The position numbers and the translations under genes are program-made. 64,000 bases of DNA from Candidatus Altarchaeales archaeon (lineage in GTDB: Archaea > Altiarchaeota > Altiarchaeia > IMC4 > SCGC-AAA252-I15): assembly GCA_014727915.1 (NCBI GenBank), contig WJMO01000006.1, positions 391,882-455,881 on the forward strand, written 5' to 3'. The first letter of the stretch is position 1. Each line of letters begins with the position of its first letter. The notes under the pieces were generated by a model. The model saw only the letters and a program-made list of their open reading frames with translations, ran no database searches and had not been told where the DNA came from. Shown here piece by piece: positions 4,338 through 52,877 of this stretch.

Positions 4338-5261
4338 ATGTTCAACCTACCCTACGTGCCCACAGCGGACGACCTCATAGACAAGGCCTTCCGGGCCGGA
4401 GCCAAGAAGAGCAAGACCGTCAGGGGCATGAGCAGGAGGAAGCCTGAGAAGGCCCTCACAGCCGAGATAAAGAGGGTGGAGCAGATCTCGGCCATCGTGG
4501 AAGGCGACCTGAACGCGGTAGTGAAGCATTTCCCAAGCTATGAGGAGCTGAGCGAATTCCACCAGGCCCTGCTGGACCTGAGGGTGAAGAAGGACAGGTA
4601 CAAGAAGAGCCTGGGGGCTGTGAAATGGTGTAGTGACAGGGTCAGCTCATTGAAGAACAAGACCCTCCGGAAGCTGAAGACCCAGAAGGACCTGGGGGAG
4701 AGCAGGGTGTTCCTGGGGAGGGTGAGCTCGTTCATAAAGAGGGTACGGAAGGACCTGGACTACCTGGTGGAAGTCAAGGGTGTGCTGCTCTCCTTCCCGT
4801 TTCTGAAGGACGAGCCCACACTGGTGGTGGCGGGAGTGCCAAATGCGGGGAAGAGCACATTCGTGAGGACGTTGACAGGGTCTAAGGTGAAGATAGCATC
4901 CTACCCGTTCACCACAACCGAGATAATGATCGGCTACCGGAAGGTCAGGTACATGGAATACCAGGTCATCGACTCCCCGGGGATACTGGACAGGCCCATG
5001 GAAGACCGGAACAGGACTGAATTGCAGGCGGTATTGGCCATAGAGCACCTGGCGGACGTGGTGTTGTTCATCATAGACCCTGAATCAGAACTGGAAAACC
5101 AGCTGCGATTGTTGGATGAGATAGAGCAGAACTTCAACCTCAAAGTCCACACGGCAGTCAACGACAAAGGAGGAGAAAACCCCAAAGGCTATGAGACATT
5201 CAACGCGACAAAAGAGGAAGACTGCCTAAGACTATTCAAGGAGTGCATTGGGTTGAAATAA
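4338..5261 (+). CDS. NOG1/Obg-type GTPase, probable ribosome biogenesis factor
   Basis: A 307-residue GTPase of the archaeal NOG1 type, a family implicated in large-subunit assembly. It has a helical N-terminal domain (1-155, rich in Lys/Glu), then G1 GVPNAGKST (about 164-172), a switch I region with the YPFTTTE sequence characteristic of Obg/NOG1 proteins, and G3 DSPG. The usual G4 NKxD is not recognisable: the corresponding strand reads TAVNDKGGE, so nucleotide specificity may differ. The protein is slightly shorter than most family members and ends shortly after the G domain. Confidence 0.82.
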   Translation: MFNLPYVPTADDLIDKAFRAGAKKSKTVRGMSRRKPEKALTAEIKRVEQISAIVEGDLNAVVKHFPSYEELSEFHQALLDLRVKKDRYKKSLGAVKWCSDRVSSLKNKTLRKLKTQKDLGESRVFLGRVSSFIKRVRKDLDYLVEVKGVLLSFPFLKDEPTLVVAGVPNAGKSTFVRTLTGSKVKIASYPFTTTEIMIGYRKVRYMEYQVIDSPGILDRPMEDRNRTELQAVLAIEHLADVVLFIIDPESELENQLRLLDEIEQNFNLKVHTAVNDKGGENPKGYETFNATKEEDCLRLFKECIGLK

Positions 5262-5277
5262 CAAACTCGGAGGTCAG

Positions 5278-5520
5278 TTATTTCTTAGGGTATTTCCTCC
5301 TGAATGCAGCCGGCCTTTCCGTCTTTTCCTTCAACGCCTGAGCTGAGGGAACGTTAAGTGGTTCTCCATCGCTGTTACCATCACCTGAGTGGGAGAGCTC
5401 TATCTTCGCCCGCTCATTCAATCCCACGGCGTCAAGCGCTTCCAACTCGCCACCAGATGTGGGGCGGACAATGCCGTCACCGGCTGAAGAACCCCTCTTC
5501 CTCGTTTTTACAGTGGTCAT
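5278..5520 (-). CDS. Small charged hypothetical protein A (80 aa)
   Basis: An 80-residue hydrophilic protein rich in Lys, Arg, Glu, Gly and Ser, with a basic N-terminus (MTTVKTRKRGSS) and a basic C-terminus (AFRRKYPKK). It has no membrane segment and no Cys, and the family is not recognised. It is preceded by a promoter nearly identical to that of the next small gene (5589-5990). That gene also begins with a Val/Lys/Arg segment and ends in a basic aromatic tail (RRFRKKWSRKK), so the two may be diverged paralogues. Probably intrinsically disordered, possibly nucleic-acid binding (inference). Confidence 0.6.
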   Translation of the reverse strand: MTTVKTRKRGSSAGDGIVRPTSGGELEALDAVGLNERAKIELSHSGDGNSDGEPLNVPSAQALKEKTERPAAFRRKYPKK

Positions 5521-5556
5521 GTAATAAATTGGGAAAAATTAGTATAAAACAGAAAC
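5521..5556 (-). promoter_or_regulatory. Leaderless promoter, copy 1
   Basis: Read on the minus strand, an AGTTTCT element is followed by TTTTATA (TATA box about 28 nt before the ATG at 5520), then TTTCCCA and an AT-rich initiator running straight into ATG. A second copy with the same order and spacing lies at 5991-6029. Their conservation outside the coding region suggests shared regulation or recent duplication. Confidence 0.6.
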
Positions 5557-5588
5557 TAAAAAGGATGATGTGTCGGTTTCATTCTGTT

Positions 5589-5990
5589 TCAGGGTGTTTT
5601 TTTACGGCTCCACTTTTTCCTGAACCGCCTCACAGCCTCTGATTCGTTCACGGACTGGCGCCCTTCCACCTGAGGCGGGATCCTATCAAGGTCCTCGTCC
5701 GAGGGGATTTCATATTCGAAATCACGGGTTTTAGGCTCGTCTATACTGGGTTCTCCCTTCTCCCGCTTTTTCTTCCTCTCCCGGGCCAGCTTTATCAGCT
5801 GAAGCTGGACTGTCGTGAAATGGGGCTCGTAGCCGTCGGCCGCTCCCCGCTCAGCCTCTATGAGGAGCTTATCGCCCAACGCATCCGTATCCACGTCCTG
5901 GATTCCAACGTCAGGGGTCTGGTGTACTTCATAGCCTGGCTCACGGCTATGGTGCTTCCTACCACGCTCCTTGACGACCGCCTTGACCAT
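5589..5990 (-). CDS. Small charged hypothetical protein B (133 aa)
   Basis: A 133-residue hydrophilic protein with no membrane segment. The N-terminal part is His/Arg-rich, a Lys/Arg/Glu helix lies in the middle (LARERKKKREKGE), and an acidic stretch (SDEDLDRIPP) precedes a basic aromatic tail (RRFRKKWSRKK). The family is not recognised. The duplicated promoter and similar termini link it to protein A at 5278-5520. Function unknown; the composition would suit a nucleic-acid or ribosome-associated protein. Confidence 0.6.
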   Translation of the reverse strand: MVKAVVKERGRKHHSREPGYEVHQTPDVGIQDVDTDALGDKLLIEAERGAADGYEPHFTTVQLQLIKLARERKKKREKGEPSIDEPKTRDFEYEIPSDEDLDRIPPQVEGRQSVNESEAVRRFRKKWSRKKTP

Positions 5991-6029
5991 GATAATATAC
6001 TGGGAAATAGTGATATAAAATAGAAACTA
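5991..6029 (-). promoter_or_regulatory. Leaderless promoter, copy 2
   Basis: Minus-strand order AGTTTCT, TTTTATA, TTTCCCA, AT-rich initiator, ATG, matching copy 1 at 5521-5556 with only scattered substitutions. The TATA box lies about 28 nt before the start codon, leaving no room for a leader. Confidence 0.6.
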
Positions 6030-6039
6030 TTGCTTTTTT

Positions 6040-6306
6040 CTATTCCTTTGGGCGGATCACAGTGTACCTGTCCCTCAACTGCCTCAACCTTGGCCTGGCC
6101 TCAAAGTCGTTAGAGAGAATTTCGAACTGTTCACGTGTTATGGGAAGCGGATCATCGGGTTCAGCGTGCTCCATCTCCCTCAACAGAACGTCTATCATCT
6201 CGGCAGACGACCCTATCCTCCCAGTCTGCCTTGGAAAATGGATTTGCCTGCCCCTTTCACCCTCAAGTCCCTGCCTCTTCTTGGGTGATTTATCCTCCAA
6301 TGCCAT
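6040..6306 (-). CDS. Small charged hypothetical protein C (88 aa), downstream of aroC
   Basis: I place the start at ATG 6306, two bases after the aroC stop, because the longer frame would run deep into aroC. The 88-residue product is Arg/Glu-rich and soluble, has a helical middle (AEMIDVLLREMEH) and a C-terminal segment rich in Arg (RPRLRQLRDRY). The DDPLP...RP...RY pattern near its C-terminus loosely resembles that of protein A at 5278-5520. The family is not recognised. It is probably co-transcribed with aroC. Confidence 0.6.
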   Translation of the reverse strand: MALEDKSPKKRQGLEGERGRQIHFPRQTGRIGSSAEMIDVLLREMEHAEPDDPLPITREQFEILSNDFEARPRLRQLRDRYTVIRPKE

Positions 6307-6308
6307 CT

Positions 6309-7400
6309 TCACAGCTTCCGTGGTATATTTCCTGAAATTATCATGTGGTCTGCGAGCACGAGGTTGACCATCGCCTCCACAACCGGAACCGCCCGCGGCA
6401 CTATGCACGGGTCGTGGCGGCCCTCCACCTGTATGTAACTATTCTTCTTAAGGTTCAAGTCCACCGTATGCTGGCGTTTCTTGATCGATGATGTTGGCTT
6501 GAAGGCAGCTCGCAAAACCACGGGCATCCCATTTGTTATGCCGCCCTGGATGCCTCCGCTGTTGTTGGACGTAGTCCTGACAACCCCGCCCGCGTATGTG
6601 AACTCGTCGTTTACCTCGCTGCCAGGCTTGGAAGCAGAATCAAACCCCAAACCGAATTCAACACCCTTTACCCCAGGTATCGAAGCGACCCCAGCAGCCA
6701 AATCCGCCGTCAATTTTCCGAACACCGGCTCCCCCAAGCCGGGAGGGACGTTCAAGGCGACGCACTCGACAACCCCGCCGACGGAATCGCCCTTCTTACG
6801 CGCAACCTTGACCTCATCGACCATCGACCGCGCAACATCAACGTCCAAAGCGCGAACGGGATTTGACTCGATCAGATCGGCCACTCCCTTCATGGAAGAG
6901 TCTAGGACCTCCCCAGACTTCACTCTGCCTATCTGCTTCGTGTAAGCAACCACTTGGACCCTGTGCTTCTGCAATATTTTCTTGGCGACCGCACCCCCGG
7001 CAACCCTGCCGACGGTCTCGCGGGCGCTTGACCTGCCGCCACCCCGCCAGTCCACGTGGCCGTACTTCATCCGCCAAGCAAGGTCAGCGTGGCCGGGCCG
7101 GGGCTTGTAGATGAAATCCCGATACTTGCTGCTGTCCGCATCCCGGTTATGGACTAGCATGCTGACAGGAGTGCCGAGGGTCCGGTCCTCGAAGACACCC
7201 GAGAGGAATTCGACACTGTCCGGCTCGCCCCTTGCGGTAGTAACATCGGACTGGCCGGGCTTCCTGCGGTCTAACTCACACTGGACATCGGCTTCCGTCA
7301 ATTCCAAACCGCTGGGGCATCCGTCCAGCACGCAACCCACCGCAGGGCCGTGACTCTCACCCCAAGTGGACAAGCGGAACAAACGACCAAATGTGTTCAT
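6309..7400 (-). CDS. aroC: Chorismate synthase
   Basis: Chorismate synthase converts 5-enolpyruvylshikimate-3-phosphate to chorismate using reduced FMN, the last shikimate step. The 363-residue protein has the three signature regions: [16 protein letters not shown] near residue 15, [14 protein letters not shown] around 105 leading into [18 protein letters not shown], and a C-terminal RHDPC segment. The length is typical. The preceding-step enzyme gene aroA is 5.5 kb away on the same strand. A TATA-like TTTTATAAT lies upstream in the 7401-7517 divergent spacer. Confidence 0.96.
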
Positions 7401-27675: not shown

Positions 27676-29061
27676 TTAAATGGTGAATTTTTCCTCATTT
27701 AACACATAATATGCCCCCCTATATTTCCCAATTTTCCTAATGAATTTGAAACGTATTAACTCCCTTAAGTCATTTACAGCTGTGGGGACAGAAATATCAT
27801 TTATAGAAGCATAAGTCTTGGATTTTATGCTCTGGTTCTGTTTGAGATAATCAATCGCTTTTATTTGTCTCTCATTTAAGTCTCCCATACCCTCGACCGG
27901 CTTTAAAACACCACGTAAGTTCATTAGGACAACAATGAAGAAATTGCCGGAATAATCGAATAATGGGTCTTTCAGGCCGGCTTTTCGCATTTCATTTCGC
28001 ATCCTAGGAATGCCGGTTCCAAGACCCTCAACATATCCAAGATCACGTAGTAATCTATACGTAAGCGGATTTCTCTGAACGGATAGAAATCCCAGTTTAT
28101 CTGGCGACATGCCAGACGGTAGTGATCCCGGGCTGATTATTTCTATTCTATCATCAAATATGTTTACTTGAATTGCATCCTTACTGAAATAATCTCTGTG
28201 TGCTACTGCATTTACAATTGACTCGCGAATCACGGTCAACGGATATTCGTATATCTCTGTTCTTATTGCTGATTCTGATGTTGGTTTAAGTCGTGTTATT
28301 ATGTTTTCTTTTATGAAAGAATATGCCAACTCAATTTGTTCAATTGGATCGCTTTTAACCAGTTTATAAGAGATTATATCTACCGCCTCGGTACCAGAAT
28401 ATTTCACAAGCTTTAGTTCAGCCTGTGGGACAAATTGGCTTAGATTTTTTGAGAAGAATAATGCTGCTGCATTTTTTATTTTCAGATGATCATTTTGATG
28501 CGCCAGTCGATTGCTTAATAGAAAATTATCTATTGAATTTTCAATCAGAAATTCTCCTTGCCCTCTTATTTTCAAAAATTTTTTTATTTTTTCTTCGTCT
28601 AAGTCTTCCAAGTTAGCTTCGCTTATGGCTTCGTCAAAACATAAGATTTGCCTGTCCCGGAGGTAATCCAACATAGAATGACCTTCTAATTTATGGACAG
28701 TGCTGCCAATTCTGACATAAATTAGTCCCTTAAAGGTGTGAAAATTGCCCTGGTTAGCCCGATGGATTATGACAAGTAATAAAGGTTTTCCGTCGATTTG
28801 TATGACTTCTTGGGAGATAAGAGGTGGAGAGCTGATGTCCTGAGATATTAATGAAATTTTTTGTTGTGCAGTATCTAAATCGCCTTCTAATCCAACAATT
28901 TTCCTTTTTCTATTTACCCCGAATACTATGGTTCCACCGTTAGTGTTTGCAAATGCACATATTTGTTTTGCTATCTTTTCTTTGCTCTGTAAAGATTCCT
29001 TAAATTCAACTTCTTGATTTTCTCCGGATTCAATAAGCCTTTTGACTTCGTCATAGTTCAT
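27676..29061 (-). CDS. AlbA_2-domain ATP-binding transcriptional regulator (AT-rich, acquired)
   Basis: 461 residues from ATG 29061 (a GTG three codons upstream is in frame). The N-terminal AlbA_2/Schlafen-type domain has VEFKES (about 18) and FANTNGGTIVFGV (about 38). A GHKL-like ATPase region has IRESIVNAVAHRDY with GTGIPRMRNEM, and a C-terminal winged helix follows (about 390-460). This is the COG2865 architecture. Base composition is far more AT-rich than its neighbours and codon use differs (many TTT, ATT, AAA), which suggests lateral acquisition. It ends 5 bp from the convergent cdc48. Two 38-bp direct repeats upstream are likely binding sites. Confidence 0.85.
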   Translation of the reverse strand: MNYDEVKRLIESGENQEVEFKESLQSKEKIAKQICAFANTNGGTIVFGVNRKRKIVGLEGDLDTAQQKISLISQDISSPPLISQEVIQIDGKPLLLVIIHRANQGNFHTFKGLIYVRIGSTVHKLEGHSMLDYLRDRQILCFDEAISEANLEDLDEEKIKKFLKIRGQGEFLIENSIDNFLLSNRLAHQNDHLKIKNAAALFFSKNLSQFVPQAELKLVKYSGTEAVDIISYKLVKSDPIEQIELAYSFIKENIITRLKPTSESAIRTEIYEYPLTVIRESIVNAVAHRDYFSKDAIQVNIFDDRIEIISPGSLPSGMSPDKLGFLSVQRNPLTYRLLRDLGYVEGLGTGIPRMRNEMRKAGLKDPLFDYSGNFFIVVLMNLRGVLKPVEGMGDLNERQIKAIDYLKQNQSIKSKTYASINDISVPTAVNDLRELIRFKFIRKIGKYRGAYYVLNEEKFTI

Positions 29062-29073
29062 ATAAATCACTTG

Positions 29074-29111
29074 ATATAAGTTATAAGTAACTTAAAGTAT
29101 TTAAAAGTATT
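29074..29111. repeat. 38-bp direct repeat, copy 1
   Basis: Matches 29142-29179 at 36 of 38 positions with a 68-bp period. It contains the perfect palindrome TAAGTAACTTA and the string AAAGTATTTAAAAGTATT. Probably an operator for the adjacent winged-helix regulator (inference). Confidence 0.75.
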
Positions 29112-29141
29112 CAAGATTTTTAGGAAATCAAAAAACACCTT

Positions 29142-29179
29142 ATATAAATTATAAGTAAATTAAAGTATTTAAAAGTATT
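29142..29179. repeat. 38-bp direct repeat, copy 2
   Basis: Second copy of the 29074-29111 repeat, differing at two bases (G to A and C to A); the second change breaks the central palindrome to TAAGTAAATTA. Confidence 0.75.
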
Positions 29180-29230
29180 TAAAGCGGAAGAATTAACCTT
29201 AATAAATATAGATAAAACCACTATTCATTG

Positions 29231-30580
29231 ATGGACTCCAGAGCCTTGGACCTCAACGCAGTATGGTTGGGCGTGCCGTTGGAGCGTTTGATGGAGAATG
29301 CCGGAGCAGCTGTAGCCCGAGAATGCGCTGGATTCAAGAGGATAGCAATATTCTGCGGGCGGGGGAACAACGGCGGCGACGGGCTCGTGGCAGCGCGGAT
29401 ACTGCACGAGGACGGAGTAGATGTCACCGTGTTCGCCCTGGAAGGAGACCGCACAAAACTGAATCAAAACAATTTGGGAAAAATCCCGGATAGCTTGAAG
29501 AAAATCATAGATAATCGTGAAGACTTCGAACTGGAGGGTTTTGACCTCATCGTCGACGCCCTGGTGGGCGTGGGTTTGGAGGGTGAAGCCCGTGAGCCGT
29601 TGAAAGGAGTAATAGAGAAGATGAACGAGTCGCACGCCCACAAGATCTCCGTTGATACGCCATCGGCTGGGATCGTGGAGGCTGACGCGGTAGTTTCACT
29701 CCACACTGCCAAGGTGCCGGGGGCGATAGTGGCGGACATAGGCATACCAGCCGAGGCGGAACGCTACTGCGGACCGGGAGACGTGGCAGTAGCGCTTCCG
29801 CGCAGGAAGAGCGATTCTCGCAAGGGAGACCACGGAAGGCTCATCGTCATGGGAGGGTGCAGGGAATACATCGGCACGCCAACACTGGTAGCGCAGGCCG
29901 CGTTGAAATCCGGCGTCGACCTCGTGACTGTCTGCGTCCCACAGTATGTCGCGGACAAGATGCCCTTCGACCCCAACCTCATAGTCCACCCGCTGAAGAG
30001 CAGTGACGCCATAACAGCAGAGGACGTGAAGGAGGTTCTAGGCATGAAATGCGACGCAATAGTCTTCGGCAACGGCCTGGGACGTGAGAGCAGAGAGGCT
30101 GCGAAGTGGCTGATGGAGAAATCTAAGGTTCCGCTGGTATTGGACGCGGACGCGCTGAGCCTCGCGAAAAAGAGATGGCTAAAGGATAATATGATAGTCA
30201 CCCCGCACGAGGCAGAGTATAGGAGGCTGTTCGGGAGATTGGAGGACAGGGAAGAGAACGTCCTAGCAGACTCCAGGGAGACCGGCGCGGTCATAGTGTT
30301 GAAGGGGAGTGAGGACACCATATCAGACGGCGAGACTGTCAGGTTGAACAGGACGGGAGACCCTAACATGACCGTCGGCGGCACAGGGGACGTGCTCGCG
30401 GGGGTGATAGGCTCCCTACTCGCACAGACAGGGGACCGGATGAAGGCAGCATGCGCTGGAGCATACCTCACCGGCAGGTCAGGGGAACTGGCCTCCGAGG
30501 AGCTGGGAGTATCCATGACAGCCACCGATGTGATAGCGAAGATACCGGAGGCCATAGGGGAAGTGAGGGATCTAGGGTGA
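29231..30580 (+). CDS. Bifunctional NAD(P)H-hydrate epimerase / ADP-dependent dehydratase
   Basis: Repairs damaged NADHX/NADPHX. The N-terminal NnrE domain (1-205) has LMENAGAAVA and GRGNNGGDGLVAAR; the C-terminal NnrD ribokinase-like domain (210-449) has GDHGRLIVMGG, the GNGLG loop, DADALSL, TPHEAE and the anion-hole GGTGDVLAGV. The two-domain fusion of about 450-490 residues is common in prokaryotes. ATG 29231 is preferred over an in-frame TTG one codon earlier. The stop overlaps the next start (GTGA). Confidence 0.95.
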   Translation: MDSRALDLNAVWLGVPLERLMENAGAAVARECAGFKRIAIFCGRGNNGGDGLVAARILHEDGVDVTVFALEGDRTKLNQNNLGKIPDSLKKIIDNREDFELEGFDLIVDALVGVGLEGEAREPLKGVIEKMNESHAHKISVDTPSAGIVEADAVVSLHTAKVPGAIVADIGIPAEAERYCGPGDVAVALPRRKSDSRKGDHGRLIVMGGCREYIGTPTLVAQAALKSGVDLVTVCVPQYVADKMPFDPNLIVHPLKSSDAITAEDVKEVLGMKCDAIVFGNGLGRESREAAKWLMEKSKVPLVLDADALSLAKKRWLKDNMIVTPHEAEYRRLFGRLEDREENVLADSRETGAVIVLKGSEDTISDGETVRLNRTGDPNMTVGGTGDVLAGVIGSLLAQTGDRMKAACAGAYLTGRSGELASEELGVSMTATDVIAKIPEAIGEVRDLG

Positions 30581-52778: not shown

Positions 52779-52790
52779 TTTGCCGCCGGC
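52779..52790. repeat. tRNA-Phe 3' end, partner of the 52138 duplicate
   Basis: TTTGCCGCCGGC, the tRNA-side copy of the 12-nt direct repeat. Confidence 0.45.
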
Positions 52791-52877
52791 GAGATTTGAA
52801 CTCGCGACACCTCGGTTTCTACGCATTCGAGTTTTTGCGCTTCAGCCGAGTGCTCTCCCAGTCTGAGCTACAGCGGC
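52781..52877 (-). tRNA. tRNA-Phe (GAA) with a 23-nt intron
   Basis: A full cloverleaf folds on the minus strand: 7-bp acceptor stem GCCGCTG/CGGCGGC (one G-U), D arm GCTC/GAGC, anticodon stem CTCGG/CCGAG, anticodon GAA (52841-52843), T arm GCGAG-TTCAAAT-CTCGC, and discriminator A at 52781. A 23-nt intron (52817-52839) interrupts the loop after position 37, the canonical archaeal site; it forms its own CGCA/TGCG stem. CCA is not encoded. Confidence 0.95.

Follow-up and report, generated by a model that had tools for sequence, protein, structure and literature searches.

Two neighbouring genes of a Candidatus Altarchaeales archaeon raise the question of how nearly the same upstream sequence came to stand before two small proteins that barely resemble each other. 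They lie in a stretch of 64,000 nucleotides of contig WJMO01000006.1, called the window below, whose coordinates we use unless another contig is named. On the minus strand the order is aroC, an 88-codon ORF, a 133-codon ORF and an 80-codon ORF, and the gene of a NOG1-type GTPase on the plus strand converges on them:

4338..5261, plus strand: NOG1-type GTPase, the convergent neighbour (PF17835 NOG1_N, E 8.2e-24)
5278..5520, minus strand: ORF of 80 codons for a small charged orphan protein with basic ends and an acidic middle (best of six frames)
5518..5558, minus strand: twin promoter block A, reading TAGTTTCT, G, TTTTATA (5543-5549), 6 nt, TTTCCCA (5530-5536), 9 nt, ATG (5518-5520)
5589..5990, minus strand: ORF of 133 codons for a small charged orphan protein whose middle is predicted to form a two-helix hairpin (best of six frames)
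5988..6029, minus strand: twin promoter block B, reading TAGTTTCT, A, TTTTATA (6014-6020), 6 nt, TTTCCCA (6001-6007), 10 nt, ATG (5988-5990)
6040..6306, minus strand: ORF of 88 codons, following aroC after a gap of 2 nt, the best reading of a third small protein, with 88 residues
6309..7400, minus strand: aroC, chorismate synthase (PF01264, E 1.3e-138; NCBIfam NF003793, E 2e-142)

Twin upstream blocks and their products

The 80- and 133-codon genes are each preceded by a block of about 42 bases in which 34 of 42 aligned columns are identical, confirming the twin promoters of a preliminary description of this DNA. The consensus common to both upstream regions is TAGTTTCT-N-TTTTATA-N6-TTTCCCA-(9/10 nt)-ATG. 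The same description had AGTTTCT, TTTTATA, TTTCCCA and the ATG follow one another at the same spacing; within AGTTTCT-N-TTTTATA-N6-TTTCCCA the spacing is indeed equal in blocks A and B, but the distance to the ATG is off by 1 nt, with TTTTATA starting at 29 and 30 nt because of a 1-nt indel after TTTCCCA. The alignment of the two regions ends at the ATG. Four of the seven mismatches fall within the spacer of 6 nt that separates TATA from TTTCCCA (a count made post hoc, after viewing the alignment), which is the pattern expected if the elements are under selection.

Judged by codon usage, the three small ORFs are probably genes, the 133-codon ORF most clearly; translation of the 80- and 133-codon ORFs is presumed. 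In each case the proposed frame is the best of six, with log-odds per codon of 0.135 (80 codons), 0.234 (133 codons) and 0.155 (88 codons), where the 201 called genes used as reference have a mean of 0.337 and 1203 shadow ORFs a mean of -0.186 (99th percentile 0.214). The value of the 80-codon ORF is under this percentile, as is that of aroC (0.199), and codon-usage support for the 80-codon gene is therefore modest.

The promoters had been said to be more alike than the products, and this is what we found: set against the 34 identical columns upstream, the coding DNA of the twins has no similarity (score 18 versus a shuffle mean of 19.3). The two proteins had further been described as alike in their basic ends only. 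Their best local match does lie in the C-terminal basic end, but it is weak: nominally significant in 1000 plain shuffles (k = 38 for local and k = 4 for global alignment), it loses significance when the charge layout is kept (k = 114 and k = 89 of 2000, respectively), suggesting that the similarity is about what a basic-acidic-basic layout yields. The charge layout of the 80-residue protein is +3/-5/+6.

Neither product has an informative relative in the databases searched. For the 80-residue protein there were no families in Pfam, NCBIfam or PADLOC at E 1, one PHROG match (E 0.21) and no match in 40 other genomes at E 0.1; its structural model, with a pTM of 0.17, has low confidence and is uninformative. 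The 133-residue protein gave nothing convincing in Pfam, NCBIfam, PHROGs, PADLOC, PDB sequences or IMG/VR. Its weak matches were the Pfam family FAM219A (E 0.087, below cut-off) and one genome of the 40 others (E 0.0865), the latter taken as chance. A single-sequence AlphaFold2 model of this protein, made without Met1 and with residue numbering off by one, has a mean pLDDT of 68 and blocks of residues 31-70 at pLDDT 79-90; it predicts, fairly confidently, a helical hairpin mid-protein between low-confidence ends. A fold search with the model returned no match (best E 2.6), and an Rfam scan of 5200-6400 gave one match far under the gathering score (E 0.14).

Probable copying of a leaderless core promoter

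We consider it probable that blocks A and B both stem from a single ordinary leaderless archaeal core promoter, copied by local duplication. A duplication at the convergent aroC-NOG1 junction, of gene and promoter together or of the promoter alone, would have produced the two blocks. TBP would sit on TTTTATA, with TFB touching the DNA immediately upstream of it. Initiation by RNA polymerase would fall at or a few bases from the ATG, giving leaderless mRNA. Each small gene would have its own transcript and both would be expressed together. The short charged coding parts would have diverged beyond recognition, or never have been related, with the promoter elements retained.

In archaea the TATA box precedes the transcription start by about 25-30 nt. 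In Haloferax volcanii, leaderless transcripts with TATA/BRE promoters have been mapped, and genes for proteins of 100 residues or fewer account for 16% of protein-coding transcripts (PMC4983044). As in the leaderless transcripts described there, the ATG of each twin stands at the expected transcription start behind the TATA box, but the Haloferax starts were mapped whereas those of the twins are predicted from sequence.

Copying is favoured because the twin genes are adjacent (and co-oriented), because their similarity has a sharp end at the ATG, and because a comparable promoter pair with homologous products exists elsewhere in the genome. This second pair (L081 / L132, G000:C3:115542-115573, and L084 / L133, G000:C4:4451-4482, both on the minus strand) shares 36 identical bases from TATA onward, and a genome search for its 25-base core, allowing up to 3 mismatches, gives exactly two sites. 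At each site the identity extends into an ORF of about 60 codons that starts with GTG. The two ORFs are homologous yet diverged, and more homologous DNA, seemingly integrase-like, follows them. This pair agrees with the twins in having a promoter more conserved than the product, so promoter copies that diverge less than their products do arise in this genome. It differs in that its products and the DNA behind them are clearly homologous and lie on different contigs, whereas the twins are neighbours with products not clearly related.

Dissimilar coding DNA and a protein similarity no better than the charge layout permits argue against duplication of the whole gene, which is thus not demonstrated. 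With coding similarity lacking, the event would be either a very old duplication with fast-evolving products or a copying of the promoter only. Among the 23 other genomes of the order, there was no relative with the block in single copy by which the event could be dated or polarised. The twins are a clean but modest case of promoters that resemble each other more than their products do, a pair that has outlasted, or never had, clear product likeness. They provide two matched natural promoters usable to test the importance of individual bases near an archaeal TATA box.

Uniqueness of the block and competing explanations

A search of the whole genome (1,808,974 bases in 13 contigs) for the complete composite, with up to 3 mismatches allowed, found two sites in 1.81 Mb, both of them the twins, and none in the control. 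At the same threshold it was absent from all 23 other genomes of the order, none of which is from the same genus. The leaderless layout as such appears to be common in this genome, as is known from certain other archaea (PMC4983044), and hence not special to the twins, because exact TTTTATA occurs 28-31 nt before an ATG at 41 sites genome-wide, against 6 for the reversed pattern, every such ATG being counted whether or not it starts a gene. TTTCCCA is present in two of these 41 sites, which are the twins. What distinguishes the twins is that they have AGTTTCT and TTTCCCA in common: in a 324-kb sample these words occur 24 and 23 times, respectively, and within 90 nt upstream of its 538 candidate ATGs each is found at the twins only (their reversed words occur four times and once in the same zones).

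Half-motifs searched under relaxed conditions do not clearly exceed their controls. With 2 mismatches allowed and the twins included, AGTTTCTNTTTTATA has 13 matches versus 17 in the reversed control and TTTTATAN6TTTCCCA has 26 versus 18. Of the 11 non-twin AGTTTCTNTTTTATA matches, 3 (L068, L070 and L075, with ORFs of 54, 323 and 279 codons) have an ATG at a distance of exactly 29 nt from the start of TATA, as do 3 of the 24 non-twin TTTTATAN6TTTCCCA matches (L089, L090 and L097, with ORFs of at least 497 codons, open at the locus end, 437 and 264 codons), a scoring confined to the real matches. None of the six comes within 3 mismatches of the whole composite, and we rejected them as members. 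L070 and L075 have AGTTTCT unchanged with a poorer TATA and lie outside the 324-kb sample. Given such matches at promoter distance, two of them with exact AGTTTCT, a small wider set of genes using one of the elements is possible; they are the main hint against the copying of an ordinary promoter.

The preliminary description had gone further and proposed that the two genes are co-regulated, perhaps by a factor using AGTTTCT or TTTCCCA. As near-identical promoters, in the usual leaderless position, should respond alike, co-regulation of the two genes is possible. Wide use of such a factor finds no backing in a genome and 23 others of the order that hold no third composite. A genome-wide regulon with a shared operator was likewise rejected, the composite occurring at the twins only and the half-motifs giving the counts above; the searches do not support a wide regulon or a widely used binding site.

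A narrower possibility, which we regard as unlikely though deserving of some weight, is that AGTTTCT, next to TATA on its upstream side, and/or TTTCCCA, shortly ahead of the predicted start site, form an operator for a repressor or activator of these two genes, perhaps an encoded protein acting on its own promoter. Conserved elements between variable spacers would fit an operator, as would the confinement of both words to the twins in the 324 kb and of TTTCCCA to the twins among the 41 TATA sites, and the exact AGTTTCT with an ATG at the same distance at L070 and L075. AGTTTCT is, moreover, not A-rich, unlike the BRE as described in PMC7289017. By comparison with the leaderless promoters known elsewhere, TTTCCCA is an additional common element. 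The bases preceding TATA in the twins are AGTTTCTG and AGTTTCTA; in the 33 other promoters of this genome, A stands at any of the 12 positions before TATA in at most 11. An operator sits poorly with the absence of a third composite, with half-motif counts not clearly higher than in the controls, and with the lack of a DNA-binding family match for either protein in Pfam and NCBIfam. Its most specific form, a self-contained and lineage-peculiar autoregulated module in which one orphan protein binds AGTTTCT and/or TTTCCCA and sets both genes, seems very unlikely. Should these elements turn out to serve as a dedicated operator, the two orphan genes would form a new small regulatory module, but nothing in the present evidence calls for one.

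The T-rich blocks might instead combine terminator and promoter, their conservation stemming from 3'-end formation of one transcript as well as initiation of the following one, which we think improbable. Each block falls in the short intergenic stretch (49 or 68 nt) that separates it from the stop codon of the preceding gene on the same strand. The coding strand of both stretches consists of 41% T and 6-7% G. Archaeal RNA polymerase can terminate at short U-tracts, and hairpin-free U-rich termination is described in PMC7289017. Termination of this kind does not, however, require an exact sequence such as TTTCCCA. The sequence would accommodate either this explanation or an operator.

A chance likeness of AT-rich upstream regions is very unlikely, for although one other upstream pair scores 39 versus 42 and another equals the twins on the spacer, the twins are both adjacent and the top pair of 43,948, with a score unmatched in 20,000 TATA-fixed shuffles. 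These values come from several comparisons. Of 201 called genes, 35 have a TTTTATA-like heptamer (up to 1 mismatch, at the tested distances), and removal of two with short spacers left 33 promoters as the comparison set. Outside TATA the twins agree at 22 of 29 positions, where 528 other pairs have a mean of 8.2 (sd 2.5) and a maximum of 16; on the 21-nt spacer alone they agree at 15 of 21, tied for best with one other pair among 820. The local DNA score is 42, whereas none of 300 dinucleotide shuffles exceeded 31; the largest TATA-fixed shuffle reached 36 against an observed 39 (scored without the ATG). The upstream pairs were drawn from 298 genes of the 324-kb sample, with starts taken from the longest ORFs, some of which will be wrong, with 305 of 44,253 pairs skipped as opposite-strand neighbours, and with the 88-codon gene absent from the genes listed around the twins.

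The runner-up, TATTACAATACAAAC-TAGTATATAAAG, belongs to two distant genes, one site being near 357885 of G000:C3 (plus strand) and the other preceding a gene on the minus strand at about 523489-524496 (contig positions calculated from offsets).

The third small gene and the aroC-NOG1 junction

A third small charged protein had been placed directly downstream of aroC, and its ORF does start 2 nt after the aroC stop. Co-transcription with aroC is therefore the simplest reading and, judged from this arrangement, the most likely one for the 88-codon gene. As a sibling of the pair the third protein fared less well: no twin-type promoter stands before its gene, and in pairwise shuffle tests of the three proteins, plain and with charges kept, its resemblance to the other two was not significant and homology was not established. 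Its charge layout (+1/-5/+4) is weaker than that of the pair. Nothing convincing was found for it in Pfam, NCBIfam, PHROGs, PADLOC, PDB sequences or IMG/VR (the Pfam and NCBIfam scans used a 122-codon version of the ORF), and its one match in the 23 other genomes of the order (E 0.0724) was taken as chance.

The junction varies among relatives. All seven other genomes of the family have aroC. Four of them (G003, G004, G005 and G007) carry it next to NOG1 on the same contig, in convergent orientation; G006 has the two genes on separate contigs, and in G001 and G002 the GTPase matches are weaker and partial only. Nothing lies between the two genes in G003, where the ORFs overlap by 9 bases, and G005 has an ORF of 270 codons. 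G004 and G007 have what we take to be a glutamine synthetase-like ORF, and G007 two further ORFs that seem to resemble a HEPN/nucleotidyltransferase pair; the junction content among L020, L022, L023 and L024 also includes an ORF that we assume to be GNAT-like. Inspection by eye of the DNA after aroC in G001 and G006 (about 1.5-1.6 kb) and G002 (0.4 kb) found nothing like the small ORFs. Junction content thus differs between genera in a way that suggests tolerance of change, and the small genes, all three, appear to be lineage-specific content of it.

Some other features of the window were noted. One neighbouring gene exceeds the threshold of the NCBIfam model for RadB (207.9 bits versus 172.4), an archaeal protein, which like the TATA promoters speaks for an archaeal genome. 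At 27676-29070 on the minus strand, an ORF of 464 codons, which we take to resemble an AlbA_2-type ATP-binding regulator, lies in an AT-rich stretch (GC 0.43 at 28001-30000 versus 0.52-0.56 in most of the window) that was perhaps acquired. A tRNA match at 52781-52877 on the minus strand extends over 97 bases, a length that would suggest an intron.
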